Origin: Ralstonia sp. 25mfcol4.1
GTDB taxonomy: Bacteria; Pseudomonadota; Gammaproteobacteria; Burkholderiales; Burkholderiaceae
Reading direction: 5' to 3'
Assembly (NCBI RefSeq): GCF_900104095.1
Contig: NZ_FNJO01000007.1
Span: 186,001-250,000 of the forward strand
DNA: 64,000 bases
The position numbers and the translations under genes are program-made. Positions 23,669 through 39,832 of the stretch are shown piece after piece (the stretch's first letter is position 1; each line of letters begins with the position of its first letter). The notes under the pieces were generated by a model, which was not told where the DNA came from, did no database searches, and saw nothing but the letters and a program-made list of their open reading frames with translations.

Positions 23669-23702
23669 ATGGGCCACGCGATACCGGGCCCGGAAAGCGG
23701 CC

Positions 23703-23722
23703 TATTGGCCCAAGGTTCCATT
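23703..23722 (+). promoter_or_regulatory. GG-rich dyad operator upstream of the DUF3300/DUF2950 genes
   Basis: ATTGGCCCAAGGTTCCATTG is a near match to the consensus ATTGGNCCWWGGNCCAAT, centred at 23712.5. TATGTT at 23746-23751 (overlapping TATATG) is a plausible -10 about 33 bases downstream. The gene starts at 23803. Confidence 0.5.
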
Positions 23723-23802
23723 GCGGCGTGTCTGGCTGCCATCTATATGTTGTGCTGACAGCCGGAGAAGGGGACGTCGGCACCATTTTGCGGAGGGATG
23801 CC

Positions 23803-25317
23803 ATGAGGCGTGGCAGCGGGCGACAAATTCGGCGCATGCGATGCATCGGCCACTGGATGCTTGCCGGCCTGTTGGTCTCCACGGGCAGCGCCCTGGCGCA
23901 GCAGGCGCCCGGGCAGCAGCCGGCCCAGCCGCCCGCGCAGGGCGCGCAGGCGACAGCGGGGCAGCAGACCTTCAAGCCCGAGGAGATCGAGGCACTGGTG
24001 GCGCCCATCGCGCTATATCCGGATTCGGTGCTGTCGCAGGTGCTGATGGCGTCGACCTATCCGCTGGAAATCGTGCAGGCCGCGCGCTGGCAGAAATCCA
24101 ATTCGAGCCTCAAGGGCGATGATGCCGTGAAGGCCGTGCAGGACCAGCCGTGGGACGTCAGCGTGAAGTCGCTGGTGGCGTTTCCGCAGGTGCTTGAGCC
24201 GATGAACGACAAGCTCGACTGGACGCAGAAGCTTGGCGATGCCTTCCTGGCCCAGGAAAAGGACGTGCTCGCGGCCGTGCAGCGGCTGCGCAACAAGGCC
24301 CAGCAGTCCGGCAACCTGAAGTCGAACGAGCAGCAGAACGTGACGGTCCAGCCGGCCACGCAAAGCAGCGGCTCGCAGCAGACGATCATCATCGAGCCCG
24401 CCAATCCGCAGGTGATCTACGTGCCGGCGTACAACCCGGCCACGGTCTACGGCAGTTGGGGCTATCCGAGTTATCCGCCGTACTACTGGCCGCCGTATCC
24501 GGCCTACTATCCGGGCGCCGCGCTGGCAACCGGGTTTGCCTGGGGCGTGGGGCTGGCGGCCGCCGGCGCGATCTTCGGCAACTGCAACTGGGGCGGCGGC
24601 GACGTGAACGTCAACGTGAACCGTGCCACCAACATCGACCGCAGCTTCAACCGCAACAGCGTCGAAGGCGGCAAGTGGAAGCACGACTCCAGCCACCGCA
24701 AGGGTGTGGCCTATCGCGACAACGCCACGCGCGAGAAATTCGGCAACAACGTTGGGGGCGCGGACCGGCGCAACGATTTCCGGGGCCGCGAGGGAGACCG
24801 GGGCGGTGATCGCGCGGGAGACCGTGCAGGAGATCGCTCGGGCAATCGGGCCGGCGACCGCAGTGCGGATCGTGCGGGGGATCGGGCTGGAGACCGGGCT
24901 GGAGACCGCTCGGCTGACCGGGGCGGTAACCGTGGCGGCGATCGTGGCCAGGGTGTGGGCGGCGACCGCGCCAGTACCGGCGACAGGATGTCCACGGATC
25001 GCGGGGGCGCCGGAGATCGCGGCGGCGCCGGCGCGAATCGCACCAGCTACAGCGGCGGCGGCCGGGACAGCGCTTTCCAGGGCGTGGGCGGCAGCGGCGC
25101 ATCATCGCAGCGCGACTTCGATCGCGGACGTGCCAGCTCGGGCGGTGGCTACGGCGGCGGACAGGGCGCGGCCCAGCGCAGTGCCGGAGGCGGCGGCTTC
25201 CAGGGCGGCGGGGCAAGCCGTGGCGGCGGCGGTGGCTTCCAGGGTGGCGGAGGCGGCCGGGGCGGCGGCGGATTTGGCGGCGGCGGTGGCCGTGGGGGCG
25301 GCGGCGGCCGTCGGTAG
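23803..25317 (+). CDS. DUF3300 domain protein with long GDR-repeat/Gly-rich tail
   Basis: 504 residues. The signal peptide ends LAQQ. The DUF3300 core (about 55-250) starts FKPEEIEALVAPIALYPDSV and contains VIYVPAYNPATVYGSWGY. A short Gly/Ala segment (about 240-265) may insert in a membrane. From about residue 331 the tail is low complexity: a four-residue repeat [GA]-[DN]-R-x repeated some 16 times, then Ser/Gly-rich sequence, ending in RGGGGGRR. The tail is predicted to be disordered and positively charged in blocks. CGGAGGG precedes the ATG by 5 bases. The DUF2950 gene follows 35 bases later; the pair is commonly linked. Function of both is unknown; envelope location is inferred. Confidence 0.85.
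   Translation: MRRGSGRQIRRMRCIGHWMLAGLLVSTGSALAQQAPGQQPAQPPAQGAQATAGQQTFKPEEIEALVAPIALYPDSVLSQVLMASTYPLEIVQAARWQKSNSSLKGDDAVKAVQDQPWDVSVKSLVAFPQVLEPMNDKLDWTQKLGDAFLAQEKDVLAAVQRLRNKAQQSGNLKSNEQQNVTVQPATQSSGSQQTIIIEPANPQVIYVPAYNPATVYGSWGYPSYPPYYWPPYPAYYPGAALATGFAWGVGLAAAGAIFGNCNWGGGDVNVNVNRATNIDRSFNRNSVEGGKWKHDSSHRKGVAYRDNATREKFGNNVGGADRRNDFRGREGDRGGDRAGDRAGDRSGNRAGDRSADRAGDRAGDRAGDRSADRGGNRGGDRGQGVGGDRASTGDRMSTDRGGAGDRGGAGANRTSYSGGGRDSAFQGVGGSGASSQRDFDRGRASSGGGYGGGQGAAQRSAGGGGFQGGGASRGGGGGFQGGGGGRGGGGFGGGGGRGGGGGRR
24793..24950 (+). repeat. Degenerate 12-bp tandem repeat encoding [GA][DN]R-x
   Basis: Inside the DUF3300 gene about 13 consecutive 12-base units follow the pattern GGn-GAy-CGn-GCn/GGn (Gly/Ala-Asp/Asn-Arg-x). 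Units differ mainly at third positions, so the repeat is old and maintained at protein level rather than a recent slippage product. Confidence 0.75.
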
Positions 25318-25352
25318 CGGGAAATGGCGATGACAACCACGAGGTGTCAGGC

Positions 25353-26300
25353 ATGCGTGCAATGAAAGCAATCCTGCCGTCGCGCATCGCGCGTACCGTC
25401 CTGCCGCTGGTGCTGGGCGCGGCGCTGATGTCGGCTGCGCAGGCCCAGAAGCCGTTCGATACGCCCGAGGCCGCCATGAATGCTTTTGGTGACGCCGTGG
25501 CCACCAGCAATGACGCGGCCATGACGGCGCTGCTGGGCCCGGAGGCCCGCCGCATGATCCCGCCGGTGGGCGCGGAGCAGCGTTATCGCTTCCTGTCGGC
25601 CTGGAGCCAGTCGCACCGCATCGAAGGTGGCGAAGACGGCACTGCGCGTGTGGTGGTGGGCAACAACGGCTGGACGCTGCCGATACCGCTGGTCAAGGCA
25701 GCCAACGGCCGCTGGCATTTCGATGCGAAGCAGGGCATCGGCGAGATCCGCTTGCGGCGCATCGGCCGGAACGAACTGTCTACCATCCAGACCATGCTGG
25801 CCATCTACGACGCCCAGCACGACTACGCGCTGGGCAACCATGAAGGCAATGGCCTGACGGTCTATGCGCGCAAGCTGGTCAGTTCGCCGGGCAAGAAGGA
25901 CGGGCTCTACTGGCCCACCCGCCCGGGCGAACCGGAGAGTCCGCTGGGGCCGGCGTTCATCGATGCCGTGTCGAGCCATCGCAGTGCATCGGACGGCTAT
26001 AACGGCTATCGCTACAAGCTGCTCAACGGCCAGGGCCCGACCGCGCCCGGCGGCAAGTACACGTATCTGGTCAACGGTAAGCTGTTCGGCGGGTTTGCGG
26101 TGCTGGCATGGCCGGCCCGCTATGGCGATACCGGCATCAAGAGCTTCATGGTCAGTCACGACGGCCAGGTCTACGAGCGCGACCTCGGACGCGACACCGG
26201 CGCGCGCGCTGCCGCCATCGATACTTTCGATCCCGGCTCGGGATGGAGCAAGGTGGCCCCTGAACTGCTGCAGCCCGTGACGGCGGGCAACGCGGACTAG
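25353..26300 (+). CDS. DUF2950 family secreted protein
   Basis: 315 residues with signal peptide (LPLVLGAALMSAAQA|QKPF). The DUF2950 pattern follows: FDTPEAAMNAFGDAVA, NNGWTLPIPLVKA, and a C-terminal GYNGYRYKLLNGQG with FAVLAWPARYGDTGIKSFMV. It is probably periplasmic or cell-wall associated; no enzymatic residue is assigned. Starts at 25353 (GAGG 8 bases ahead), 25362 and a GTG at 25344 are all possible. It is cotranscribed with the DUF3300 gene and closed by a clear terminator at 26341-26379. Confidence 0.8.
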   Translation: MRAMKAILPSRIARTVLPLVLGAALMSAAQAQKPFDTPEAAMNAFGDAVATSNDAAMTALLGPEARRMIPPVGAEQRYRFLSAWSQSHRIEGGEDGTARVVVGNNGWTLPIPLVKAANGRWHFDAKQGIGEIRLRRIGRNELSTIQTMLAIYDAQHDYALGNHEGNGLTVYARKLVSSPGKKDGLYWPTRPGEPESPLGPAFIDAVSSHRSASDGYNGYRYKLLNGQGPTAPGGKYTYLVNGKLFGGFAVLAWPARYGDTGIKSFMVSHDGQVYERDLGRDTGARAAAIDTFDPGSGWSKVAPELLQPVTAGNAD

Positions 26301-26340
26301 GCAGCTGGCCGGCGCCGGCTTACGCGGGCGATCCCCACAA

Positions 26341-26379
26341 TGCTCTGGCCGGTGTGAACACCGGGCCAGGGCATTTTTT
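26341..26379 (+). terminator. Rho-independent terminator after DUF2950 gene
   Basis: TGCTCTGGCCGGTG, loop TGAA, CACCGGGCCAGGGCA, then TTTTTT. The stem has one bulged G and one G-T pair. It ends the DUF3300-DUF2950 unit. Confidence 0.85.
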
Positions 26380-26821: not shown

Positions 26822-27391
26822 ATGATGAATCGACGGTTGTTCATGAGCCTGCCTTCACTGGCATTGGCACCGGCTTTATTTGCCTGTACCACCAACATGT
26901 CTGGCAGCGATGCCGTGGCCAAGCGGCGTGAGATCGATGCCGGCGTGGACGGCACCATGAGCAAGCTGTTCGCGTCCGCCAGTTCGGCGCAGGCGCTGTC
27001 GCAGCAGGCAAAGGGCATACTGGTCTTTCCCAAGATCCTGGCCGCCGGCTTTATCGTCGGTGCCGAGTATGGCGAGGGGTCGCTCCGGGTGGCCAATGCG
27101 CCGGTGGGCTATTACCGCACCACGACCGCATCGTTCGGTTTCCTGGCCGGCGCACAGTCCAAGGCGCTCATCCTGATGTTCATGACCGACGCCGCATTGC
27201 AGGCGTTCCAGGCCAGCAGCGGCTGGACGGCCGGCGTGGACGGATCGGTTGCGCTGGCGACCATCGGCGCGAACGGGCAGATCGACACCAACACGGCCCG
27301 CGCGCCCATCGTCGGATTCGTGCTGACCAACGCCGGGCTGATGGCCAACCTGTCGCTCGAAGGCACCAAGATCAGCAAGCTCGATATCTGA
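26822..27391 (+). CDS. SYLF-domain (YSC84-like) lipoprotein
   Basis: 189 residues. The N-terminus is a lipoprotein signal with lipobox ALFAC (Cys22). The SYLF/Ysc84 domain follows, with AKGILVFPKILAAGFIVGAEYGEGSL, quoted here in segments (AKGILVFPK, GAEYGEGSL), and the repeated SFGFLAGAQSKALILMFM. In eukaryotes the domain binds phosphoinositides; in bacteria its role is unknown, and the lipid anchor places it at the outer membrane. MMNRR gives two possible ATGs (26822 and 26825). The kinase gene starts 17 bases after its stop, so they are probably cotranscribed. Confidence 0.85.
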   Translation: MMNRRLFMSLPSLALAPALFACTTNMSGSDAVAKRREIDAGVDGTMSKLFASASSAQALSQQAKGILVFPKILAAGFIVGAEYGEGSLRVANAPVGYYRTTTASFGFLAGAQSKALILMFMTDAALQAFQASSGWTAGVDGSVALATIGANGQIDTNTARAPIVGFVLTNAGLMANLSLEGTKISKLDI

Positions 27392-27407
27392 GCGTGCGCG
27401 TCCGACC

Positions 27408-28304
27408 ATGAGATGGGTCACGATCCTGCTGCTGGGGGCGTCCGTCGCGCTGGCGACGGGCGTGCTGCCGCGCCCGCGCGCCGCGCCGAGGCGCCGTAGC
27501 GATACCCTGCGCGTGATCGATACCAGTCCGTTCTCCGACATCGCCAGCCGCCCCGGCATGGTCGAACTGGCTGGGTCGCTGGCGCACGAACTCAATCAGC
27601 CGCTGACCGCCATTACCAGCAACGCCCAGGCCGCGCGCGAGTACCTGATGTCGGGCACGCCGGATCAGGGCGAGATCCGCGAAATCCTCGATGACATCGT
27701 CAGCGACGCCTCGCGCGCCAGCGATATCGTCAAGGGCGTGCGGGCGCTGATCCGCGGCGAGGCCCCTCACCTGGTGCCGTTCCAGATTGGCGAGGTGATC
27801 GCGCGTGCGCTGGAACTGGTGCGCGACGAAGCCCGGGCGCGCGAGGTGACCGTGGATGGCACGGCGGATGGCGAATTGCCGCGCGCCGTGGGCGATCCGA
27901 TGGAGATCCAGCTCGTGCTGCTGAACCTTCTGGTCAATGCGCTGGATGCCGTCGAGGCAGCGCACGCCCGTGGCGCGCGCAAGGTATCGGTCGGCGCGTC
28001 CGCGCAGGACGGCGTGCTGAAGCTGACCGTCCGCGACAACGGCTGCGGCGTCGCCGAGGGCGACCTCGACAAGATCTTCCGCCCGTTCTTTTCCTCTAAG
28101 CCCAAGGGCATGGGCCTGGGCCTGTCGTTCAGCCGCGCGCTCATGGAACGCAATGGCGGCCGGCTGCGCGCCATCCGAAACAGCGACAGGGGCATGACGT
28201 TCGAATGCCTGCTGCGCACCGAACTTCCCGCCTCGGCCACGGCGCATCATCGCGGCCCTGCGGTCGTTGCGGCCCGGTTCAGGACTGCATTTTCCCGGAG
28301 GTAG
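27408..28304 (+). CDS. Membrane-tethered sensor histidine kinase
   Basis: 298 residues. One N-terminal hydrophobic segment (about 3-20) is followed directly by the dimerisation domain: SLAHELNQPLTAITSNAQAA with phosphoacceptor His60. The N-box is NLLVNALDAVE, G1 DNGCGV, F-box FRPFFSSK and G2 GMGLGLSF. No periplasmic or PAS sensor domain exists, so signal input is unclear; the single segment may interact with a partner membrane protein. It is followed after 6 bases by a FixJ-type regulator, its likely cognate. Confidence 0.85.
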   Translation: MRWVTILLLGASVALATGVLPRPRAAPRRRSDTLRVIDTSPFSDIASRPGMVELAGSLAHELNQPLTAITSNAQAAREYLMSGTPDQGEIREILDDIVSDASRASDIVKGVRALIRGEAPHLVPFQIGEVIARALELVRDEARAREVTVDGTADGELPRAVGDPMEIQLVLLNLLVNALDAVEAAHARGARKVSVGASAQDGVLKLTVRDNGCGVAEGDLDKIFRPFFSSKPKGMGLGLSFSRALMERNGGRLRAIRNSDRGMTFECLLRTELPASATAHHRGPAVVAARFRTAFSRR

Positions 28305-28310
28305 GACTCC

Positions 28311-28934
28311 ATGCTCGCTACCAGGACCACCCTCTACATCGTTGACGATGACGATAGCGTTCGCCGCGCGCTGGGCCGTGTGCTGGGCGCGCATGGCTAC
28401 CTGACTGCCGGGTTTGCGTCAGCCAGCCAGTTCCTGGAAGAAGCCGATCTGGACACCGCTCCTGGCTGCATGCTGCTGGACCTGCAGCTGCCCGACATCA
28501 GCGGCATCGACCTGCAGCAGGCGCTGTGCAGCCGGATTCCGGTCATCATCCTGACCGGACATGCCGACGTGGCCAGCGCGGTACTGACGATGCAGGCGGG
28601 CGCCATCGACTTCCTGCAAAAGCCGGTATCCGACGTGCAATTGCTGGCTGCGGTCAGCAAGGGCTGCGACTGTGCCACGCGACTGTTTGCACAGGCCAGC
28701 GAATTGCGCGACCTGAAAAAGAAGATCGACCGCCTGACGCCGCGCGAGCGCGAGGTGCTGGCGTGGATCGTCACGGGCTTCCGCAACAAGCAGGTGGCCA
28801 ACCGGCTTGGCACGGTGGAGAAAACCATCAAGGTTCATCGCGCCCACGTCATGCAGAAGCTCGAAGTGGATTCCCTGCCGGCATTGGTCCGCATTGCCGA
28901 CCGCATGGGCATGGTGGCGGATCCGGCCGCCTGA
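28311..28934 (+). CDS. FixJ/NarL-type response regulator
   Basis: 207 residues. The receiver domain has YIVDDDDSVRRAL at the start, phosphoacceptor Asp in LLDLQLPD, Thr in IILTGHAD and Lys in LQKPVS. The LuxR-type output domain reads LTPREREVLAWIVTGFRNKQ with recognition helix EKTIKVHRAHVMQKL. It lies 6 bases after the kinase gene. The family activates transcription as a phosphorylated dimer on dyad sites. The recurrent ATTGGNCCWWGGNCCAAT dyads of this region, including one 100 bases downstream of its stop, are candidate targets; that link is an inference. Confidence 0.9.
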   Translation: MLATRTTLYIVDDDDSVRRALGRVLGAHGYLTAGFASASQFLEEADLDTAPGCMLLDLQLPDISGIDLQQALCSRIPVIILTGHADVASAVLTMQAGAIDFLQKPVSDVQLLAAVSKGCDCATRLFAQASELRDLKKKIDRLTPREREVLAWIVTGFRNKQVANRLGTVEKTIKVHRAHVMQKLEVDSLPALVRIADRMGMVADPAA

Positions 28935-29032
28935 ACACGGTTCGTCAGCCCGGGGGCGCAATCCCGCGGCGCGCTCCCCGATACCATCCCAGGGCCATTC
29001 CCGCGCCGGTCCGGCGAAAATCCTGCATGCCC

Positions 29033-29052
29033 GCTGGACCATGGGCCAATAT
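29033..29052 (+). promoter_or_regulatory. GG-rich dyad operator upstream of the lone receiver gene
   Basis: GCTGGACCATGGGCCAATAT, centred at 29041.5, matches the right half of ATTGGNCCWWGGNCCAAT fully and the left half partly. A -10-like CCTAAT at 29076-29081 lies about 35 bases from the centre. The receiver gene starts at 29117. Confidence 0.55.
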
Positions 29053-29116
29053 CGCCCGCCGCGCGTGTCTCGTAGCCTAATCAGTACGTGCTTACGATCG
29101 GCTGCGCAACGTGCAA

Positions 29117-29488
29117 ATGGGTGCGACGGGAAACTTCGTGGTGGTTGTCGACGACGACGCGTCGGTGGCGCGGTCCACGTCGCGGCTATTGCGTGCCGCG
29201 GGGATCACCGTCGACACCTTCACCAGCGGCGCCGATTTTCTTTCCCGCATCCACGGCAAGGCGAGCTATCGGCCGTTCTGCGTGATCCTCGATGTCTGCA
29301 TGCCCGGGATTGACGGGCTGGAAGTGCAGCAGCAACTGGCCGGCCTGGACCTGCCCCTGATCTTCATCACCGCGCACGAGGTGCCCGAGGCACGTGACAA
29401 GGCATTGGCGGCCGGCGCCGTCGGCTATCTGCGCAAGCCTTTCGACGCCGCGCAGCTGGTGGATCTGGTACGTAGCGTGATGCCTTAG
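29117..29488 (+). CDS. Stand-alone receiver-domain response regulator
   Basis: 123 residues consisting of one receiver domain: VVVVDDDASVARS (acidic pocket), VILDVCMPG (phosphoacceptor Asp), LIFITAHE (Thr) and YLRKPFD (Lys). No output domain follows; the next 120 bases are non-coding. Such CheY/SpdR-like proteins act as phosphate sinks or protein-interaction switches. A GTG at 29111 would add two residues. It has its own promoter with a dyad operator, separate from the kinase/FixJ pair 180 bases upstream, so it may give feedback on that pair. Confidence 0.85.
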   Translation: MGATGNFVVVVDDDASVARSTSRLLRAAGITVDTFTSGADFLSRIHGKASYRPFCVILDVCMPGIDGLEVQQQLAGLDLPLIFITAHEVPEARDKALAAGAVGYLRKPFDAAQLVDLVRSVMP

Positions 29489-29497
29489 CCCCATGCC

Positions 29498-29517
29498 TTT
29501 GGTCCTTGGTCCAATTG
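29498..29517 (+). promoter_or_regulatory. GG-rich dyad operator upstream of the RRM/RND-efflux unit
   Basis: TTTGGTCCTTGGTCCAATTG, centred at 29506.5, differs from ATTGGNCCWWGGNCCAAT at one base. TCTTAT at 29542-29547 is a -10 candidate 35.5 bases from the centre. The RRM gene starts at 29611. Confidence 0.6.
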
Positions 29518-29610
29518 TCATTCAGGCCGCAACAGGCACACTCTTATCAGGGCACGCGGCAGGCACCCTGCCATACGCGTGTTTCGCGGGCCGAACAGGA
29601 GGACCGGCAA

Positions 29611-29865
29611 ATGTCGCTACTGATGATTTCCAACCTCCACCCGGACACCACGGAGGAGCAGGTCAAGGAATTCCTTGGCCGCTATGGCTTTCCGGCGGCA
29701 GACGAGATCGAACGGCAGGAGGGCGATGGCACGCGTCCGTCGATGACGCTGACGTTCCGGACGGTGGACATGGGCGCGCTGCAACAGCTCGTACCGCGTA
29801 TCCACGGCGTGTTCTGGAATGGCCACAAGATCAATGCGCTGATCCTGCGCGAACACTTCAGGTAA
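29611..29865 (+). CDS. Small RRM-type RNA-binding protein
   Basis: 84 residues. It opens with SLLMISNLHPDTTEEQVKEF, resembling the beta1-alpha1 part of an RNA-recognition motif, and later TLTFRTVDMGALQQLV covers beta3-alpha2. The aromatic RNP residues of classical RRMs are only partly present. AGGAGG lies ahead of the ATG at a spacing of 8. It is placed directly behind a dyad operator and 50 bases before the RND adaptor gene. Similar short RRM proteins in betaproteobacteria respond to cold or stress; the RNA target here is unknown. Confidence 0.7.
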   Translation: MSLLMISNLHPDTTEEQVKEFLGRYGFPAADEIERQEGDGTRPSMTLTFRTVDMGALQQLVPRIHGVFWNGHKINALILREHFR

Positions 29866-29915
29866 TCGCAAAAGTCTCGCGTGGCCCACGGCCGGCGCGG
29901 GCAGGAGATACGACG

Positions 29916-31166
29916 ATGGCAAGCGGTCTGGTATCCAAGCGCGGTCGGTGGGCATTGCTGGTCCTGGCCGCACTGGCGGTGACCGGCTGCCACAAGCAGG
30001 AGGCCAAGGCGCCGGCGGCACCGCCGGCGGCCGAAGTGGGCGTGGTCAAGGTGACGCTGCACGACGTGCCCCTCACCTACGAGTTCGTGGGTGAAACGCA
30101 GAGTTCGCAGCAGGTGGAAATCCGGGCCCGGGTGAGCGGCTTCCTGGAGCAGCGCCTCTATACCGAGGGCTCGATGGTCAAGGCCGGCCAGGTCATGTTC
30201 CGCATGGACCAGAAGCCGTTCCAGGCCGCGCTCGATGCGGCGCAGGCCGAACTGGCCCAGCAGCAGGCCCGGCTGACCACCGCGCGGTCCAACCTGGCAC
30301 GCGTCAAGCCGCTGGCTGCCAAGAACGCGTTGAGCCAGAAGGACCTCGATGAAGCCACCGGGCAGGAACAGGCCGCCGCCGCCGCCGTGGAAGCGGCCAG
30401 GGCCAACGTCACCAACGCCAAACTGAATCTCGGCTACACGACCATCACGTCGCCGGTGGATGGCCTGTCCAGCTACGCCAAGAAGCAGGTGGGGTCCTAC
30501 ATCGACGCCACCAACAGCCTGCTCACCTATGTGGCCAAGCTCGATCCGATCTGGATCAACTTCAGCCTGTCCGAGAACGAGGTGCTGCAATACCAGTCGC
30601 AGACCGCGTCCGGCACGCTCCGCATGCCCGAGCGCGGCGCGATGGAGGTCGAGATCGTGCTGGCCGACGGCACCACGTATCCGCAGCGCGGGCGTATCGC
30701 CTTCGCCGATGCGTCGTTCAACTCCGAGACCGGCACCTACCTGATCCGCGCCGAAATGCCGAACACCAAGGGCATGCTGCGGCCGGGGCAGTTCGTGCGC
30801 GTGAGGCTGATCGGCGCGGTGCGTACCAAGGCCATCACCGTGCCGCAGGAAGCCGTCGTGCAGGGCCAGCGCGGCCAGTCCGTCTGGCTGGTGGGCAAGG
30901 AGAACAAGGCCGAGTCGCGCGTGATCGACGTGGGCGAATGGTCGCAGGGCAACTGGGTGGTCCGTTCGGGCCTGCGCGAGGGCGATACCGTCATCGTCGA
31001 TGGTGCGATACGCCTCGCGCCGGGCGCGCCGGTCAAGCCGGTGGCGGCTGCGCCGCGCCCGGCCAGCGACGGGCCGTCACCGGTGCCGCCGTCGGCGCCG
31101 CCCGCGCGGCCAGCGGCGCCGGGCGCCCCCGGTGCGGCGGAAGCCGGCAAGGGTGCCGCGTCATGA
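29916..31166 (+). CDS. RND efflux periplasmic adaptor (membrane fusion lipoprotein)
   Basis: 416 residues. The signal sequence ends in lipobox AVTGC (Cys near 24). Adaptor domains are in the usual order: VEIRARVSGFLEQRLYTEGS (lipoyl half), an alpha-hairpin with Ala/Gln heptads (about 100-160), NLGYTTITSPVDGLS (second lipoyl half), then beta-barrel and membrane-proximal domain. A Pro/Ala-rich tail of about 50 residues ends the protein. It links the inner-membrane pump to the outer-membrane channel. GGAGA precedes the ATG; the stop overlaps the permease start by 4 bases. Confidence 0.9.
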   Translation: MASGLVSKRGRWALLVLAALAVTGCHKQEAKAPAAPPAAEVGVVKVTLHDVPLTYEFVGETQSSQQVEIRARVSGFLEQRLYTEGSMVKAGQVMFRMDQKPFQAALDAAQAELAQQQARLTTARSNLARVKPLAAKNALSQKDLDEATGQEQAAAAAVEAARANVTNAKLNLGYTTITSPVDGLSSYAKKQVGSYIDATNSLLTYVAKLDPIWINFSLSENEVLQYQSQTASGTLRMPERGAMEVEIVLADGTTYPQRGRIAFADASFNSETGTYLIRAEMPNTKGMLRPGQFVRVRLIGAVRTKAITVPQEAVVQGQRGQSVWLVGKENKAESRVIDVGEWSQGNWVVRSGLREGDTVIVDGAIRLAPGAPVKPVAAAPRPASDGPSPVPPSAPPARPAAPGAPGAAEAGKGAAS

Positions 31167-34100
31167 AACTGTCCCACTTCTTCATCGACCGGCCGATCTT
31201 TGCGTCGGTGCTGTCGATCATCATCGTGGTGGGCGGGATGGTGGCGCTGTTCAACCTGCCTATCGCGCAGTTTCCCGACATCACGCCACCCAGCATCACG
31301 GTGTCGACCACGTATCCGGGCGCCAGCTCGGAAGTGGTGGCGCAGAATGTGGCGGCGCCCATCGAGCAGCAGGTGAACGGCGCGGACAACATGCTGTACA
31401 TGTCGTCCACCAGTTCGTCCACGGGCAATATCACGCTGACCACGTACTTCGAGATCGGCACCGATCCGGCACTGGCGCAGGTTGACGTGCAAAATCGGGT
31501 CAACCTGGCCCTGCCGACCCTGCCCGACGCCGTGACCAAGCAGGGCGTGACCGTGGAAAAGCGTTCGCAGGCGTTCATGATGGTGATTGCCGTCTATTCG
31601 CCTGACAACAGCTACCCGCAAACCTTCGTCGACAACTACACCAGCATCTACATCCTCGATTCGCTCAAGCGCATCCCGGGTGCCAACCAGTCGTCCATCT
31701 TCGGCACGCCGGACTACGCGATGCGCATCTGGCTCAAGCCGGACCGCATGGCCCAGCTGGGCATCACGGCCGAGGATGTCAAGAACGCCGTGGCCAACCA
31801 GAACGAGCAGTTCTCGGCGGGCCGCATCGGCAGTTCGCCCACGTCGGAGCCGGTCAAGCAGACGTTCCCGGTGACCACCAAGGGCCGCATGACCGAGCCG
31901 GCCGAGTTCGAGAACATCATCCTGCGCGCGGCATCGGGCGACGCCGCGCTGGTGCGGCTCAAGGATGTCGGCCGGGCCGAGCTGGGTTCGAAGGACTACT
32001 CGCTGCGCAGCCGCTACAAGGGCAAGACGGCCACGCTGCTGGCCGTGTACCAGCAGCCGGGCGCCAATGCGCTGGCAGTGGCCGGCCAGGTCCGCAAGGC
32101 GCTGGAGGAAGCCAAGAAGACGTTTCCGCCGGGGCTGGAATACGAGATCGCGCTCGACACCACCGAGTTCGTGCATGAATCGATCAACGAGGTGGTCCAC
32201 ACCTTGCGCGACGCGGTGATCCTGGTGATTCTGGTGGTGTACCTGTTCCTGCAGAGTTTCCGCGCCACGCTGGTGCCGATCCTGGCGGTGCCGGTGTCGA
32301 TCATCGGTACGTTCACCGCCATGGCCGCGTTCGGCTTCTCGGTGAACATGCTCACGCTGTTCGGGATGGTGCTGGCCATCGGCATCGTGGTGGACGATGC
32401 CATCGTCGTGATCGAGAACGTCGAACGCAACATGATGGAGTTCCACATGCCGCCCAAGGAGGCCGCCAAGGCCGCCATGGACGAAGTGGGCGGCCCGGTG
32501 ATCGCCATCGTGCTGGTGCTGCTGGCGGTGTTCATCCCGGTGGCGTTCCTGTCGGGCATCACGGGCCAGCTATACAAGCAGTTCGCCATCACGCTGGCGG
32601 TATCGGTGCTGCTGTCCGGGGTGGTGGCGCTGACGCTGTCGCCGGCGCTGGCGGCCATCCTGCTCAAGCCGGGCAGCCACGAGAAGAACCGGTTCTTCCG
32701 CTGGTTCAACCGCAGTTTCGACCGGCTGGTGGAAGGCTATGGCTCGACCGTGCAGGCCGTGATCCGGCGCACGGCGATCTCGGTGGGCATCGTCATCGCG
32801 CTGATCGTGGCCGCCGTGCTGATGTTCATGCGCATTCCGTCATCGTTCCTGCCGGTGGAGGACCAGGGCTATCTGCTCGGCGCGGTCATCATGCCCGACG
32901 CGGCCAGCCTGGACCGCACCGGCGCGGTATCGAAGCGGGCTGCCGAGTGGTTCGAGAAGCAGCCGGCGGTGAAATCGGTGGCGGTGCCCGACGGCTACAG
33001 CCTGATCGATTCGCAGAACAAGTCGAACGCCGGCACGCTGTTCATCACGCTGAAGGGCTTCCATGAGCGCGGCAAGGGCGAAAGCGCGGCTGACCTGATC
33101 GCGCAGGCCAACAAGGAGTTTTCGACCTATCGGGAAGGGCTGGTGATTCCCGTGAATCCGCCGTCGATACCGGGGCTCGGCACCACGGGCGGCTTCGAGT
33201 TCTGGCTGCAGAGCACCGGCGACGGTACCTACCAGCAGCTTGAGGAACGCACGCGGGCGTTCATTGCCAAGGCCCGGCAGCGGCCGGAACTGCGCGGCGT
33301 GAGCACGACGATCAACACGCGGTCGCGGCAATTGCTGGTCGACCTCGACCGCGAGCGCGCCGAAACACAGGGCGTGCCCGTGGAGCAGGTGTATTCCGCG
33401 CTGCAGACGATGTTTGGGTCGTTGTACGTGAGCCAGTTCCCGAAAAACAGCCGGCTGTTCCAGGTGATCCTGCAGGCCGAACCGGAGTACCGGTCGAAGC
33501 CCGAGGATATCGACAAGGTCTACGTGCGCAATTCACGCAACGAAATGGTGCCGATCAAGGCCGTGACCACGGCGCGTTATGTGGCCGGCGCCGATCTGGT
33601 GACGCGCTTCAACAACTTCCCGGCGGCCAAGATCACCGGTGACGCCGCGCCGGGGTACAGCTCGGGCCAGGCGCTGCAGGCCATGGAGGAGGTGGCGGCC
33701 GAGGTGCTGGGCCTAGGCTACAGCTATGCGTGGAGCGGTCAGGCCTATGAGGAAAAGAAGGCCGGGTCCACGGCGGCGATGGTGTTCGCGTTCGCATTGC
33801 TGATGGTGTTCCTGATCCTGGCGGCGCAGTACGAGAAATGGTCGCTGCCGATCGGGGTGCTGCTGGCCGTGCCGTTCGCGCTGTTCGGCGCGCTGGTGGG
33901 CATCCTGGTGCGGGGCATGGAAAACGATGTGTACTTCCAGATCGGCCTGACGGTGCTGATCGCCCTGGCCGCCAAGAATGCCATCCTGATCTTCGAATTC
34001 GCGGTGGAGATGCGTGTCAAGGAGGGACTCAGCCCGTATGACGCGGCGGTCAAGGCGTCCAAGATGCGGCTGCGCCCGATCATCATGACGTCGCTGGCGT

Positions 34101-34336
34101 TCATCCTCGGCTGCATCCCGCTGGCCATCGCAAGCGGTGCGTCGGCGGCCAGCCGCCAGTCGCTGGGCACGGGCGTGATCGGTGGGATGCTTGGCGCCAC
34201 GGTGATCGCCATCTTCTTTATCCCGATGTTCTTCTGGGGGCTGGAGCGCGAGAGCAAGAAGAAGCTCGCCAAGCAGGCCGAGAAGGATGCCGGGCCAGGC
34301 GCCGACCCCGCCGCGCCCACCGGAGGCACGCTATGA
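31163..34336 (+). CDS. RND multidrug efflux permease (HAE1 family)
   Basis: 1057 residues, normal length for MexB/AcrB-like pumps. It starts LSHFFIDRPIFASVLSIII. The proton-relay residues are in TM4 (GIVVDDAIVVIENVER) and the Lys in TM10 (LAAKNAILIFEFA). Two large periplasmic loops and the duplicated six-helix halves are present. It should export hydrophobic drugs or aromatic compounds as a trimer driven by the proton gradient. It is the middle gene of an adaptor-permease-outer-membrane-factor operon with ATGA overlaps on both sides. Substrate range cannot be read from the sequence. Confidence 0.95.
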   Translation: MKLSHFFIDRPIFASVLSIIIVVGGMVALFNLPIAQFPDITPPSITVSTTYPGASSEVVAQNVAAPIEQQVNGADNMLYMSSTSSSTGNITLTTYFEIGTDPALAQVDVQNRVNLALPTLPDAVTKQGVTVEKRSQAFMMVIAVYSPDNSYPQTFVDNYTSIYILDSLKRIPGANQSSIFGTPDYAMRIWLKPDRMAQLGITAEDVKNAVANQNEQFSAGRIGSSPTSEPVKQTFPVTTKGRMTEPAEFENIILRAASGDAALVRLKDVGRAELGSKDYSLRSRYKGKTATLLAVYQQPGANALAVAGQVRKALEEAKKTFPPGLEYEIALDTTEFVHESINEVVHTLRDAVILVILVVYLFLQSFRATLVPILAVPVSIIGTFTAMAAFGFSVNMLTLFGMVLAIGIVVDDAIVVIENVERNMMEFHMPPKEAAKAAMDEVGGPVIAIVLVLLAVFIPVAFLSGITGQLYKQFAITLAVSVLLSGVVALTLSPALAAILLKPGSHEKNRFFRWFNRSFDRLVEGYGSTVQAVIRRTAISVGIVIALIVAAVLMFMRIPSSFLPVEDQGYLLGAVIMPDAASLDRTGAVSKRAAEWFEKQPAVKSVAVPDGYSLIDSQNKSNAGTLFITLKGFHERGKGESAADLIAQANKEFSTYREGLVIPVNPPSIPGLGTTGGFEFWLQSTGDGTYQQLEERTRAFIAKARQRPELRGVSTTINTRSRQLLVDLDRERAETQGVPVEQVYSALQTMFGSLYVSQFPKNSRLFQVILQAEPEYRSKPEDIDKVYVRNSRNEMVPIKAVTTARYVAGADLVTRFNNFPAAKITGDAAPGYSSGQALQAMEEVAAEVLGLGYSYAWSGQAYEEKKAGSTAAMVFAFALLMVFLILAAQYEKWSLPIGVLLAVPFALFGALVGILVRGMENDVYFQIGLTVLIALAAKNAILIFEFAVEMRVKEGLSPYDAAVKASKMRLRPIIMTSLAFILGCIPLAIASGASAASRQSLGTGVIGGMLGATVIAIFFIPMFFWGLERESKKKLAKQAEKDAGPGADPAAPTGGTL

Positions 34337-35799
34337 GCCATCGCGGCTTGCGGGCGCGAGCCCTGGTGCCGGGGCTGGCGGCGATGACGCTGCTGGCCGG
34401 CGGCTGTACCGTCGGACCCGACTACGTGCGGCCGGACGTGGCCGTGCCGGAGACCTACCGCTTCGCGCCCGAAACGCCGCAGGCGGCCGACGTGGTCACC
34501 ACGCAATACTGGTGGTCGCAGATCGGTGATCCGGTGCTCGACGACCTGATCGCCGCGGCGCGCGCGCACAACTACGACGTGCTGATTGCCACGGCGCGCG
34601 TAGAGGAATACTACGGACGCGTGATGACCACGCGGGCCGGCCTGTTCCCACAGGTGGGGGCAGAGGCGGGCGGCGGGCGGCAGCGCATCAGCACCAGCGG
34701 CGGCACCGTGCTGCCCATCGACAACCCGTTCAACTCGGTCAAGGCCGACGTCTACGCGTCGTGGGAGATCGACCTGTTCGGGCGCATCCGGCGGATGACC
34801 GAAGCGGCCCGGGCGGATTGGGCGGCTTCCGAACAGGCGCGCCGCAGCACCGAGATCAGCGTGGTGGCGGCGGTGGCCAGCGGCTACATCACGTTGCGCG
34901 ATCTCGACAACCGCCTGCGCATCGCGCAGGACACGCTGGCCAGCCGCGAGGGCGCGCTGCAGGTGTTCCGCGAACGGTTCCAGGGTGGCGTGGTGTCGGA
35001 GGTCGAGTATGCGCAGTCGCGCTCCGAGTATGCGTCGGCGCAGGCTTCGGTCGAGCAGTTCCGGCAGCTGGTGGCGCAGCAGGAAGACCTGCTGGCCGTG
35101 CTGGTTGGCGACAACCCGCGTGCCATGCCGCGTGGCAAGTCGATCGACGAGCTGATTCTTCCGGTGGTGCCGGTGGGATTGCCGTCGTCGCTGCTGGAAC
35201 AGCGCCCGGATCTTCTGCAGGCCGAACAATCGCTGGTGGCGGCCAACGCGCAGATCGGCGCCGCGCGCGCGCAGTATTTCCCGACGATCTCGCTGACCGG
35301 CATGTTCGGCGCGGCCAGCACCGCGCTGTCCGGGCTGTGGGTGGGTTCATCCAGGGCGTGGTCGTACGGTGGCCTGATCAGCGTGCCGATCTTCACCGCC
35401 GGTGCGATTGCCGGTGACGTGAAGCAGGCCGAGGCACGCCAGAAGCAGGCGCTCTACGGCTACCAGCAGGCGGTGCAGACCGCGTTCCGCGAGGTGGCCG
35501 ATGCGCTGGCTGGCGTGCAGTACACGCGCAGCCAGCTCCTGGCCAAGAACGACCAGGTGGATGCGTTGTCGCGCTACGCGCTGCTGGCGCGCGACCGATA
35601 CGAAGGCGGCTACACCAGTTACCTGGAAGTGCTCGATTCCGAGCGTTCGCTGTTTTCCGCGCAACTCGAACAATCGACGTTGCGCGGCACGGAGTTCGGC
35701 CAACTGGTCCAGCTCTACAAGGCGCTGGGCGGCGGCTGGCCCGTCGACGGCGCACCCCAGGCCAGCGTCAACCAGCCGGCCAGCCCCGCCAAGGAGTGA
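34333..35799 (+). CDS. RND outer-membrane channel lipoprotein (NodT/OprM family)
   Basis: 488 residues. The lipobox is LLAGGC (Cys near 25), followed by TVGPDYVRP, the classical start of this family. Two repeats each have helical hairpins and barrel strands: DVYASWEIDLFGRIRR, written in part, and VGLPSSLLEQRPDLLQAE mark the standard positions. It forms the trimeric exit duct of the preceding pump. The start overlaps the permease stop by 4 bases. The next small gene follows after 3 bases, so the operon continues. Confidence 0.92.
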   Translation: MSHRGLRARALVPGLAAMTLLAGGCTVGPDYVRPDVAVPETYRFAPETPQAADVVTTQYWWSQIGDPVLDDLIAAARAHNYDVLIATARVEEYYGRVMTTRAGLFPQVGAEAGGGRQRISTSGGTVLPIDNPFNSVKADVYASWEIDLFGRIRRMTEAARADWAASEQARRSTEISVVAAVASGYITLRDLDNRLRIAQDTLASREGALQVFRERFQGGVVSEVEYAQSRSEYASAQASVEQFRQLVAQQEDLLAVLVGDNPRAMPRGKSIDELILPVVPVGLPSSLLEQRPDLLQAEQSLVAANAQIGAARAQYFPTISLTGMFGAASTALSGLWVGSSRAWSYGGLISVPIFTAGAIAGDVKQAEARQKQALYGYQQAVQTAFREVADALAGVQYTRSQLLAKNDQVDALSRYALLARDRYEGGYTSYLEVLDSERSLFSAQLEQSTLRGTEFGQLVQLYKALGGGWPVDGAPQASVNQPASPAKE

Positions 35800-35802
35800 T
35801 TC

Positions 35803-36285
35803 ATGTCCAGATCCAGCATTCCGGCCGCGCTGCTAGCCGCCACCGTTTTGGTTGGCCTCAGCGCCGGCGCCCTCGCGCAATCGAAACCGATCGCCTATCC
35901 GGCCAAGGGACAAAGCCAGGCCAAGCAGCAGGAGGATGACGGTTACTGCTACTCGTGGGCCAAGTCGAACACCGGCATCGATCCGGCGCAGGTGGCCGCC
36001 GCGCCCCCGCCCGCGCCCAGCGGCCCCGCCGTAGGGGGCGGCGAACGGGTGGGCGGTGCGGCGCGCGGCGCTGCGGGGGGCGCGGTGGTGGGCGCCATTG
36101 CGGGCGATGCCGGCAAGGGCGCCGCGGCCGGTGCGGCCGTGGGCACGATGGCGGGCGGTCACCGGGCAAGGCAGAACCAGCGCAATGCGCAGGCCAATGC
36201 GCAATCGCAGCAGTCGGGAGCCATGAATACCTACTACCGCGCCTATTCGGCCTGCATGCAGGGGCGCGGTTACACGATCCAATAA
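35803..36285 (+). CDS. Glycine-zipper family envelope protein
   Basis: 160 residues with signal peptide (GLSAGALAQ). A central glycine-zipper region (GGAARGAAGGAVVGAIAGDA and GAAAGAAVGTMAGG) could insert in a membrane as a hairpin. A C-terminal YYRAYSACMQGRGYTI motif with Cys is typical for this group of small outer-membrane or periplasmic proteins. Another Cys in DDGYCYSWAK may pair with it. It starts 3 bases after the efflux channel gene with AAGGAG ahead. Function unknown; a role in envelope stability is a guess from the zipper. Confidence 0.75.
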   Translation: MSRSSIPAALLAATVLVGLSAGALAQSKPIAYPAKGQSQAKQQEDDGYCYSWAKSNTGIDPAQVAAAPPPAPSGPAVGGGERVGGAARGAAGGAVVGAIAGDAGKGAAAGAAVGTMAGGHRARQNQRNAQANAQSQQSGAMNTYYRAYSACMQGRGYTIQ

Positions 36286-36298
36286 CCAAGGAGGTCAT

Positions 36299-36886
36299 AT
36301 GTTCAAGCGAGTCGCCATTACAGCTGCAGTGCTGCTGAGCCTGTCGGCAGCGTCGTACGCCCAGCCGGACGTGAAGACGGACGTGCAACGGTCGCCCGGG
36401 CAGACCACGGCCACCGGCACGGCCAAGGTCAACGCCACCATCACCGCCATCGACGCGGCGTCGCGCAAGGTCACGCTCAAGACCCAGGCCGGCAAGGTGG
36501 TGGACATGACCGTGGGCGACGAGGCGCGCAACTTCGACCAGTTGCGCGTGGGCGACAAGGTTGCCGTCGAGTACACCGAGGCCCTGACCGTAAGCCTGAA
36601 GAAGGGCAGCGGGGCGTCCACCATGCAGGAACGCGAGATTTCGGAGCGTTCCGAACCCGGCGCCAAGCCGGGTGGCCGGCTCGGGCGCGAGGTAACCGTG
36701 GTGGCACAGGTTGTCAAGGTCGACAAGGAAAAGAACATCGTCACGGTCAAGGGGCCCCGTGGCCACACGGTGGATCTGCTGGTGGAAGACCCCGAGCAGA
36801 TGAAGGCCGTGAAGAAGGGGGACCGCGTGCAGGCTGTCTATACTGAGGCAGTCGCGGTATCTGTCACACCGGGCGCCGCGAAGTAA
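36299..36886 (+). CDS. Secreted protein with two OB-like repeats
   Basis: 195 residues with signal peptide (LLSLSAASYAQ). Two similar segments, NATITAIDAASRKVTLKTQAG with GDKVAVEYTEALTVSL, and VVAQVVKVDKEKNIVTVKGP with GDRVQAVYTEAVAVSV, indicate an internal duplication of a small beta fold. It is probably periplasmic. AAGGAGG precedes the ATG, and the gene lies 13 bases after the glycine-zipper gene in the same unit. No enzymatic motif is visible. I do not recognise a named function. Confidence 0.7.
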   Translation: MFKRVAITAAVLLSLSAASYAQPDVKTDVQRSPGQTTATGTAKVNATITAIDAASRKVTLKTQAGKVVDMTVGDEARNFDQLRVGDKVAVEYTEALTVSLKKGSGASTMQEREISERSEPGAKPGGRLGREVTVVAQVVKVDKEKNIVTVKGPRGHTVDLLVEDPEQMKAVKKGDRVQAVYTEAVAVSVTPGAAK

Positions 36887-36932
36887 CGGCATTCCCGATC
36901 CAGTCCGGCAAGGAGTGAAGGAGGCAGCCTCG

Positions 36933-37328
36933 ATGCTCACTGCGAAATGGCACGGCCTGTGCGCGGCCGCGCTGCTGGGCCTGGCCTGGCCAGCGCATGC
37001 GTATTACGATCACTTCCTCAGCGGCACCATCATCGGCACCCTGGACAAGGACCAGGTGGCGGCGTTGCGCACCACATTCGGCAAGGCGCTGACCGACTCC
37101 GATGACGGTGCCAGCGTGCCGTTCCACCTGGACGCCAGCACCAGCAACGCCAAGAGCAAAGCCACCGATGGCACGTTCACGCCGCTCAAGACGCGTACGG
37201 AGAACGGGCAGCGTTGCCGCAAGGTGCGCAGCGAACTGCGTCAGCCGGGCCGGCAGCCGGAACGCTGGACAGGCTGGTATTGCCAGCAATCGGACGGCGA
37301 CTGGAAGAAGACGATGATCAAGGACTGA
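36933..37328 (+). CDS. Small secreted surface-antigen-like protein
   Basis: 131 residues. The signal peptide ends AHA|YYDHF. The mature part contains NGQRCRKVRSELR and GWYCQQSDGDWK, a pattern of the C-terminal domain of rickettsial 17-kDa-antigen-like proteins (RT0821/Lpp0805 type), with two cysteines. AAGGAGG stands 8 bases before the ATG at 36933; a GTG at 36915 is also open. It is the last gene of the run that starts with the efflux operon. Family assignment is tentative. Confidence 0.6.
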   Translation: MLTAKWHGLCAAALLGLAWPAHAYYDHFLSGTIIGTLDKDQVAALRTTFGKALTDSDDGASVPFHLDASTSNAKSKATDGTFTPLKTRTENGQRCRKVRSELRQPGRQPERWTGWYCQQSDGDWKKTMIKD

Positions 37329-37356
37329 CCGCGCGCCGCCCGGCGGCGGACCTGGC

Positions 37357-37378
37357 CCCACCGCCGCACGGCGGTGGG
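37357..37378. terminator. Perfect GC hairpin between convergent genes
   Basis: CCCACCGCCG-CA-CGGCGGTGGG is a perfect inverted repeat located 28 bases after one stop and 2 bases after the stop of the convergent PPK2 gene. It has no T-run on either strand, so it may act with Rho or only protect 3' ends. Confidence 0.5.
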
Positions 37379-37379
37379 C

Positions 37380-38198
37380 TCAGAACTTCTCGGGGATGTA
37401 GCGGTACGGATAGTCGGGTGCCTTGTAGTTGCCCGCCTTCTGGCGCGCCGGCAGCGTGACCTTCTTGCTCTTGACGTGCTCGTACGGCACGGAGGCGAGC
37501 AGATGGCTGATGATGTTCAGCCGCGCGCGCCGCTTGTTGTCGGAGCGCACCACATGCCACGGGGCAAAGTCGGTATCCGAGGCCGCGAACATCGCGTCCC
37601 GGGCGCGGGAGTAGTCATACCAGCGGCTGTACGACTTCAGGTCCATGTCCGTCAGCTTCCAGGTCTTGCGCCCGTCCTCGATGCGCGATTGCAGCCGGCG
37701 CGTCTGCTCTTCGGGCGTGACTTCGAGCCAGTATTTCAGCAGCAGCACGTTGGACCCGACGATGGCGCGTTCCATCAGCGGCACGGCACGCAGGAACGCA
37801 TCCACCTGTTCTTCGCTGGCAAAGCCCATCACGCGTTCCACGCCGGCCCGGTTGTACCAGCTGCGGTCGAAGATCACCACTTCGCCGGCGGCGGGCAGAT
37901 GGGGGATGTACCGTTGCATGTACATCTGGCTCTTCTCGCGCTCCGTGGGTGCGGGCAGCGCCACCACCCGGAACACGCGCGGGCTGACCCGCTCGGTGAT
38001 GGCCTTGATGGTGCCGCCCTTGCCGGCGCCGTCCCGTCCCTCGAAAACGATGCATACCTTGGTGCCGCTGGCCTTGATCCAGTTCTGCATGTGCACCAGT
38101 TCCACATGCAGCCCGGCCAGCGCCTCGTCATAGTCCTTGCGGCCCAGTTCGGTGCTGGCCCCCGCCTCGCTTTCGGCGCGCCGTGCCTGTTTTGCCAT
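37380..38198 (-). CDS. ppk2: Polyphosphate kinase 2
   Basis: 272 residues, the one-domain PPK2 form. Walker A is FEGRDGAGKGG (52-62). The lid and Walker B region is VVIFDRSWYNRAGVERVMG (about 108-126), then WLEVTPEEQTRRLQSR and the C-terminal YRYIPEKF. It transfers phosphate between polyphosphate and nucleoside di- or triphosphates in the cytosol. Class I features (one domain, about 270-300 residues) suggest ADP or GDP phosphorylation from polyphosphate. Its divergent upstream region holds two dyad operators, one placed correctly for this gene. Confidence 0.92.
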   Translation of the reverse strand: MAKQARRAESEAGASTELGRKDYDEALAGLHVELVHMQNWIKASGTKVCIVFEGRDGAGKGGTIKAITERVSPRVFRVVALPAPTEREKSQMYMQRYIPHLPAAGEVVIFDRSWYNRAGVERVMGFASEEQVDAFLRAVPLMERAIVGSNVLLLKYWLEVTPEEQTRRLQSRIEDGRKTWKLTDMDLKSYSRWYDYSRARDAMFAASDTDFAPWHVVRSDNKRRARLNIISHLLASVPYEHVKSKKVTLPARQKAGNYKAPDYPYRYIPEKF

Positions 38199-38236
38199 GT
38201 CAGCTCCCGGAGTCTTGATGGGGATACTCTCCCCCG

Positions 38237-38287
38237 AGTATCAATCTGGACACTGGGTCGGGCTTTGGCAATGGACCTTGGTCCAAT
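38237..38287 (-). promoter_or_regulatory. Dyad operator and -10 box of the PPK2 promoter
   Basis: On the minus strand CATTGGACCAAGGTCCATTG (centre 38278.5) matches the dyad consensus on both halves. GATACT at 38242-38237 is the -10 candidate, 36.5 bases from the centre, and the PPK2 start is 39 bases further. Confidence 0.6.
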
Positions 38288-38337
38288 GCTTGGCCCAAGG
38301 ACCAATTGCTTTGCGCCGGTGCTTGGCTGACTCTAAC
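38288..38337 (+). promoter_or_regulatory. Dyad operator and -10 box of the small membrane-protein/AI-2E transporter unit
   Basis: CTTGGCCCAAGGACCAATTG (centre 38297.5) is one of the best copies of the dyad. TCTAAC at 38332-38337 is a -10 candidate 34.5 bases from the centre. The centre lies 19 bases from the copy used by PPK2, so two dimers would bind side by side. Confidence 0.6.
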
Positions 38338-38636: not shown

Positions 38637-38687
38637 TGGCGTGCCCGCTGTCCCGCTCGCAATCCGCCGCACAAGGGAGGTCATCCC

Positions 38688-39830: not shown

Positions 39831-39832
39831 CC

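Follow-up and report, generated by a model that had tools for sequence, protein, structure and literature searches.

A conserved dyad with unusually rigid promoter spacing as putative operator of an uncharacterised clade of FixJ/StyR-type two-component regulators

Published reports describe the systems closest to the one considered here. Phosphorylated StyR activates transcription from the site STY2, at about -40 from the start (PMC2442086), Caulobacter FixT is a negative-feedback regulator of FixL (PMC7078487), and EvgA is linked to acid resistance and to the RND pump MdtEF (PMC10333786). We analysed a stretch of 64,000 nucleotides, the window, from the 6.34 Mb genome of Ralstonia sp. 25mfcol4.1 (contig NZ_FNJO01000007.1, positions 186,001 to 250,000; G000:C28:186001-250000 in our numbering, with G for genomes, C for contigs and L for loci), which carries an 18-bp dyad in front of several genes and, among them, genes for a histidine kinase (27408) and a FixJ/StyR-type response regulator (28311). 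The dyad (consensus ATTGGNCCWWGGNCCAAT) is very likely the operator of a FixJ/StyR-type two-component activator, which would work by the mechanism set out below. The sites, their conservation, a rigid spacing to a -10-like hexamer, the co-occurrence with a regulator clade and the gene order kinase-regulator-dyad-lone receiver were computed directly.

An earlier note on this DNA had placed five dyads in the window, and the scan with its 18-mer found all five at the centres claimed. Six matches with up to three mismatches were detected, against 0.37 expected, and none of 100 shuffles had as many, which excludes chance in the window: the dyad signal there is real. The supposed half-site near 23661 is present at 23653-23670 and reads rather as a sixth, degenerate dyad of an opposite-facing promoter; in 5 of 10 aligned Cupriavidus loci, window included, the good half is kept and a TA-rich hexamer follows it at the spacing expected. 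A coding match reported near 39695 fails to reach three mismatches. That all copies are intergenic holds with the likely gene starts; with mechanically longest starts some copies overlap open reading frame (ORF) calls, the dyad before the RRM-like gene, for instance, overlapping ORF 29493-31166.

The spacing between dyad and promoter was examined in a stack of 52 dyad-led promoters, oriented by the downstream gene. The hexamer.A...T begins exactly 23 nt past the 16-mer of the dyad in 39 of them, and TA...T at that offset in 23; with the best two adjacent offsets taken together, TA...T is found in 25, against a mean of 4.3 and a maximum of 9 in 2000 shuffles. T directly follows the 16-mer in 98% of the stacked promoters, and the bases after it often read TTGNNN, a -35-like hexamer 17 bp upstream of the -10. 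If transcription starts 7 nt past the -10, the dyad centre would lie near -43, a class II-like activator position; a site at about -40 with a fixed -10 spacing (39/52 at one offset, with the start inferred) corresponds to the StyR-like class II arrangement. The stack includes near-copies (e.g., G124/G141 and two G023 CusF-like promoters). Kept out of it were, among others, the nap and EamA orthologues L148, L150, L151 and L152 and other Cupriavidus orthologues, the weaker sites L207, L210 and L211, the second sites L154:12859, L153:10342, L205:5911, L199:8728, L202:965, L216:10127 and L157:5525, and L195, L200 and L203, in which the adjacent gene is not clear. The post-dyad bases form the classes TTGY, TATC and TGGC/TGGA, and several promoters of the last class (EamA, VIT-like, DUF2252 of G005) carry a CTACCGT-type -10.

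The near-constant distance from dyad to -10 proposed for the window was right, but by the stacked comparison all five hexamers named with it are a few bases off; the hexamers it gives instead (Table 1) are conserved and lie 22-29 nt past the 16-mer. The dyad adjoins the -35, where a repressor could also act. Constant spacing to weak -10s, however, is what activators typically show, and a repressor would not require it. We consider it very improbable that a repressor of the TetR, MarR or a similar family uses the dyad as an operator overlapping the -35, with the regulator association due to hitch-hiking in one genomic island.

The dyads are conserved in place. The Cupriavidus loci L031-L043 lie around orthologues of the 28311 regulator; this genus (g1) was labelled Cupriavidus on the strength of the closest named relatives of the regulator, those of Cupriavidus sp. 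U2, C. pauculus UM1 and Cupriavidus sp. D384 (96-98% identical). Dyads stand there at the same places as in the window, before DUF3300, the lone receiver and the RRM-like gene, and between polyphosphate kinase 2 (PPK2) and the small membrane protein/AI-2E genes. Some loci are incomplete (e.g., L043 has a weak site only, L034 is without the DUF3300 part), and L036, L037 and L042 are stretches ending early. In alignments of the promoter orthologues on the dyad, its columns are 0.89-0.99 conserved, the upstream flanks 0.50-0.60 and the downstream flanks 0.53-0.67, except for the upstream flank of the PPK2/small membrane protein promoters, which reaches 0.90 and contains the other dyad. The DUF3300 dyad is conserved at 0.96 against flanks of 0.60 and 0.65 (10 loci), the lone-receiver dyad at 0.89 against 0.50 and 0.53 (15 loci, including L079 and two Lysobacter) and the RRM dyad at 0.99 against 0.59 and 0.60 (13 loci); nine loci were aligned for each of the PPK2 and small membrane protein/AI-2E dyads.

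Two outcomes named in advance as refuting the motif were its absence before orthologues and its even spread over coding DNA. Neither occurred: in Cupriavidus the dyad is kept while its flanks drift, and only 2 of 49 exact sites lie more than 200 bp inside an ORF call. This count covers 245 sequences, all except six loci of the genus g36 (below), and many of its 49 distinct sites are mutually orthologous. Of the 49, 24 overlap some ORF call made with the longest start, nearly all near its over-extended 5' end, and the two deep sites are both in doubtful calls (L033, an overlapping antisense call in the PPK2/small membrane protein gap; L204, a 91-codon call, 10 bp from its end). Under a stricter rule, applied to 65 of the 245 sequences, 1 of 47 sites lies inside, with ORF calls covering 0.84 of the DNA.

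The dyad co-occurs with one regulator clade. The exact motif was detected in 16 of 36 genomes of the genus set, and a regulator homologue of at least 177 bits in all 16 of these and in one (G017) of the 20 motif-negative genomes. None of 24 genomes from other families had the exact motif, and the best regulator there scored 167 bits; a reversed control matched one of these 60 genomes. Across the family set of 299 genomes the motif was present in 37 and the control in eight, the 37 comprising 14 genomes of the genus, 10 from four other genera and 13 of the small-genome genus g36. The g36 match encodes NFGPWPNG within the open frame of a conserved gene in 5 of 6 loci (L175 was left out of the check), and the best g36 regulators score at most 158 bits; all 13 genomes were set aside as apparent coding coincidences. 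A test of 42 genomes gave the homologue in 12 of 12 motif-positive and 5 of 30 motif-negative ones. The combined counts are 28/28 (28/41 with g36) against 6/50 (Fisher p ~1e-15, without phylogenetic correction). Among the six motif-negative genomes with a regulator, G017, G096, G242 and G118 have near-dyads beside it: G017 has one-mismatch sites upstream of the RND genes and in the gap from regulator to lone receiver, and the other three have weaker dyads; no dyad scoring >14 was found in the 16 kb examined in G160 and G291.

Regulator and exact dyads are on different contigs in G310 (six contigs), G292 and G232 (draft contigs), so linkage alone is insufficient to explain the co-occurrence. 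Hitch-hiking would fit the linkage of dyads and regulator in Cupriavidus, but the association persists on these separate contigs, and the dyad adjoins the regulator in two Lysobacter as well.

A tree was built of 84 regulators. Of these, 30 carry a dyad label, 25 for a dyad that scores at least 14 and lies no more than 600 bp downstream, and 5 by hand for dyads elsewhere. All 30 belong to a single group of 42 rows (support 96/69), and 26 sit within a narrower group of 37 rows (support 99/95). Most members have the recognition-helix signature EKT(I/V)K(V/A/I)HRA in common, L054 being an exception. Together, the fixed geometry, the conservation and the co-occurrence argue for one activator behind the dyads, as had been suggested, and the co-occurring clade strengthens the case for the 28311 regulator as the candidate.

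The genome encodes two further clade members, at C28:153795 (49% identity) and C16:8268 (45%). That the clade generally binds the dyad, and that here one of these paralogues, or all three proteins with overlapping roles, would mainly do so, seems unlikely to us. Both paralogues lie within the dyad-bearing tree group and share the signature EKT(I/V)KVHRA, and G310, G292 and G232 have dyads on contigs other than those of the clade members found; yet neither paralogue has a good dyad in the 600 bp that follow it (best scores 0.4 and 2.6), both are on a long branch of the tree, and in the named Cupriavidus loci the dyads cluster around 28311 and its orthologues. The 28311 regulator is the candidate binder among the three.

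Several observations weigh against an operator of this clade. The presence of three clade members in one genome is one of them. The stack rows were hand-chosen and hand-oriented and include near-duplicates and orthologues, and in G253 an ORF call, taken from its longest start, runs into the exact site. The genomes compared are related, which inflates the p-values; the 30 motif-negative genomes were hand-picked from four genera; and the 177-bit threshold was set after an observed gap, below which the scores were at most 152 bits (25 other hand-picked negatives), 149 (genus negatives), 158 (g36) and 167 (other family). In the tree group, 12 of the 42 rows are without a dyad label, L208, L209, L213, L214 and L215 show no dyad scoring >14 in the surrounding 16-17 kb, and members without a nearby dyad have similar-looking recognition helices. 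L080, outside the group, has scattered matches, the best scoring 16.3 at a distance of 3.6 kb, close to the random 95% level of 15.7 for 20 kb. In the own genome, up to two mismatches give 127 matches against 232 for the reversed control, no excess, and adding a -10 requirement to the two-mismatch matches does not rescue the scan (32 per strand, control 22 and 35); the full regulon is therefore not listable from sequence alone. As the matches with up to two mismatches are rarer than the control, only sites with 0-1 mismatch were used.

The same scan is what functionless chance or repeat-element copies would predict, two-mismatch matches being no commoner than the control. The window excess, the conservation, the fixed -10 spacing in non-homologous promoters and the placement outside gene interiors speak against such copies, and we give this explanation practically no weight. 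The exact core TTGGNCCNNGGNCCAA occurs twice in the whole genome, both times inside the window. Over 66 distant FixJ loci (L045-L110, 1.05 Mb) we counted 1 exact, 4 one-mismatch and 28 two-mismatch matches, against 0, 0-4 and 34-46 for six control patterns; the informative matches there are L079 and L050. A text search of the literature, with most subscription journals outside its reach, did not find the motif in print.

With the 28311 regulator as activator, the following mechanism is proposed. The kinase at 27408 would phosphorylate the regulator, which would dimerise, bind the dyad centred near -43 and recruit sigma-70 RNA polymerase, in a class II-like manner, to promoters whose -35 is weak and whose -10 reads nAnnnT; physical binding, and activation rather than repression, are inferred. 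The window targets would be envelope genes (DUF3300/DUF2950, small membrane protein), RND efflux, polyphosphate kinase 2 and AI-2E, and those elsewhere in the genome periplasmic nitrate reductase, the Orn/Lys/Arg-type decarboxylase, the EamA transporter and the VIT-like gene. The switch would also drive the lone receiver via its own dyad, and this protein is probably a phosphate sink, competitor or feedback brake. Acid or low-energy stress is the suspected signal, a theme that is our reading of the target list.

The module is conserved across genera. Outside Cupriavidus, kinase, regulator and lone receiver occur together in G330, G313, G094, G075, G124, G141, G253, G096, G242 and G118. The dyads around the lone receiver differ in strength, G253 has intervening genes, and RND genes come next in all but the G094 and G141 stretches, where none were seen (8 of 10 loci). 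The order kinase-regulator-dyad-lone receiver recurs in other Burkholderiaceae and in Lysobacter. L079, a betaproteobacterial metagenome-assembled genome (regulator 50%), has a dyad before the lone receiver with AI-2E and DUF3300 nearby, and no kinase was detected there by similarity. In two Lysobacter (regulator 44%) a dyad stands in the gap from regulator to lone receiver, and DUF3300/DUF2950 lie downstream. More distant FixJ-type regulators, too, are trailed by a lone receiver, in L046 and L048 (Bradyrhizobium) and in L060 and L097 (Hyphomonadaceae); behind those of L046 and L097 stand weak dyads with other letters. A dyad just before the regulator gene in G001 (L154:12859) and another about 350 bp before the kinase gene in G330 (L199:8728) may point to autoregulation.

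Five one-mismatch sites lie outside the window in the own genome. Three lead napD-A-B-C, a small protein plus EamA, and the Orn/Lys/Arg-type decarboxylase; the others are in C38, within an ORF call, and at C17:58483, intergenic with a score <13.5. The VIT-like gene stands behind a weaker dyad with two core mismatches and a good -10, and C17:61818 (two mismatches, LysR side) was dropped as weak. At L142:4800-4851 (G000:C40) two opposed dyads, the second weak, lie between the Orn/Lys/Arg-type decarboxylase and genes for aspartate 4-decarboxylase and an aspartate-alanine antiporter. By ORF sizes, a nap-like gene layout follows a dyad in G012, G035 and G009, and an EamA layout in G035.

Dyad-led genes of other genomes are VIT-like (below cut-off) and DUF2252 in G005; DUF3141 in G026; phosphotransacetylase, beside acetate kinase, in G001; patatin, lone-receiver, Ysc84-like and CusF-like genes in G023; HdeA, a glycine-zipper gene, aldehyde dehydrogenase, a RoxA-like cytochrome and DUF2092 in G292; glutamate decarboxylase, after a 122-codon ORF call, in G124; DUF2092, after a small ORF call, in G330 and G075; AI-2E in G124, G141 and G094; and PPK2 and a flavin monooxygenase in G094. 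The L192 dyad leads a glycine-zipper gene, not an ion channel, that of L198 leads AI-2E, not DUF2252, and that at L194:6078 leads the RoxA-like cytochrome gene. Genes led by a dyad in two or more genera or genomes are those for AI-2E, PPK2, DUF2092, Ysc84, glycine-zipper, RND and lone-receiver proteins. The Cupriavidus genome G023 has an island (L153 and L157; C7:350000-365000 and 333000-345000) in which two clade regulators are separated by about 17 kb and at least seven dyads have scores >15; 5 of the 7 have the variant half GGACTTT.

An uncharacterised regulator clade of several Burkholderiaceae genera and Lysobacter gains a putative operator, a promoter geometry and a target list, which makes its signal testable with one reporter. 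A candidate regulator is also offered for the function-unknown DUF3300/DUF2950 pair. One study of root nodule bacteria describes the two as universally co-localised, as having no characterised members and as induced according to two RNA-seq studies (PMC4653623). The locus presents a natural case of a lone receiver under the putative operator of its own pathway, often with a second dyad copy behind it.

Table 1. Putative operator sites and genes of the window
Feature	Position	Strand	Remarks
Degenerate dyad, one good half	23653-23670	-	3 mismatches to 18-mer; probable divergent promoter toward gene at 22573; hexamer TACGCT 23629-23624
Dyad before DUF3300/DUF2950	23704-23721	+	2 mismatches; hexamer TATATG 23744-23749
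DUF3300 protein	23800-25317	+	Pfam PF11737, 316 bits
DUF2950 protein	25344-26300	+	Pfam PF11453, 365 bits
Ysc84-like protein	26822-27391	+	Pfam PF04366
Histidine kinase	27408-28304	+	HisKA + HATPase_c
FixJ/StyR-type response regulator, candidate dyad binder	28311-28934	+	REC + LuxR-type HTH
Dyad before lone receiver	29033-29050	+	2 mismatches; hexamer TAGCCT 29073-29078
Lone receiver protein	29111-29488	+	Usual phosphorylation-pocket residues
Dyad before RRM-like gene and RND efflux genes	29498-29515	+	1 mismatch; hexamer CACACT 29537-29542
RRM-like small protein	29611-29865	+	Pfam match 19.4 bits, just below cut-off of 20.7
RND efflux system: membrane-fusion protein, AcrB-type pump, outer-membrane factor	29910-35799	+	
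Polyphosphate kinase 2	37380-38198	-	Pfam PF03976; NCBIfam TIGR03707, 344.9 bits (cut-off 301.8)
Dyad assigned to PPK2 promoter	38270-38287	-	1 mismatch; hexamer CAGATT 38248-38243
Dyad assigned to small membrane protein/AI-2E promoter	38289-38306	+	1 mismatch; hexamer GACTCT 38329-38334
Small membrane protein (no Pfam family), AI-2E family transporter, outer-membrane factor, HlyD-type protein	38364-42546	+	

The 28311 regulator matches PF00072 and PF00196 above cut-off and is classed as a NarL/FixJ (LuxR-HTH) response regulator. The window kinase and that of G017 (L155:8760-9851) have HisKA/HATPase without a recognised sensor domain or PAS match, and all ten kinase relatives of other genera have a PAS match, nine of them above the Pfam cut-off; the Cupriavidus lineage kinase may have lost a PAS sensor. 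Judged by eye, the lone receiver keeps the acidic pocket, the phosphorylation Asp, the Thr and the Lys. The RRM-like gene, although its match is below cut-off, sits between dyad and efflux genes in several Cupriavidus loci. No dyad was found in the window in front of the Ysc84-like gene, and its relatives stand behind a dyad in other genomes (L199/L220, L218, L216, L153, L194). The gene at 22573 has no Pfam family match.

The nearest solved relatives of the regulator are StyR (1yio, 139.6 bits) and FixJ (126.1 bits). StyS/StyR of styrene-degrading Pseudomonas, and also TodS/TodT, are alike in having the same layout of REC and LuxR HTH. The StyR site ATAAACCATGGTTTAT has the CC-WW-GG core in common with the dyad and differs in the letters of the outer half-sites; StyR serves one catabolic operon, whereas here the promoters are many and dispersed and a lone receiver is among the targets. 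The FixL/FixJ/FixT likeness lies in the NCBIfam FixJ model, the best family for the regulator, and in a lone receiver within the pathway. The regulator scores 175.2 bits against the equivalog cut-off of 255 for FixJ proper (NF006900), the window kinase has HisKA/HATPase only where a FixL-type kinase has PAS in addition, and the window receiver has two Cys where FixT has a conserved 4-Cys motif (0-4 Cys across 26 relatives, no conserved four). EvgS/EvgA of E. coli resembles the system in its LuxR-type regulator and its acid-resistance and RND links, with RND genes, glutamate and Orn/Lys/Arg-type decarboxylases and HdeA found here in different genomes; the gene set differs, and EvgA orthology is set aside at 47.5 bits against an equivalog cut-off of 251. 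The B. cenocepacia low-oxygen-activated (lxa) locus reportedly holds stress, phosphotransacetylase and acetate kinase genes, which the dyad before phosphotransacetylase, beside acetate kinase, in G001 recalls; the regulators of four g35 genomes (presumed Burkholderia) are at most 44% identical.

We tentatively suggest that the system could be a self-limiting acid/low-energy stress switch of Burkholderiaceae and Lysobacter, equivalent in function to EvgAS but built on a FixJ/StyR-type pair, in which one operator would couple decarboxylases, HdeA, nitrate respiration, phosphotransacetylase, polyphosphate kinase, RND efflux and DUF3300/DUF2950, and the lone receiver between two operator copies would set the pulse length. 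Taken together, the comparisons make it a well-supported proposal that the dyad serves an uncharacterised two-component clade of FixJ/StyR type as operator and that the led genes are its regulon; the promoter layout is unusually rigid. By the family tests made, the system is not FixJ, FixT or EvgA; by analogy, its closest known counterpart would be StyR/TodT in regulator and promoter geometry, FixLJ-FixT in wiring and EvgA in physiology.

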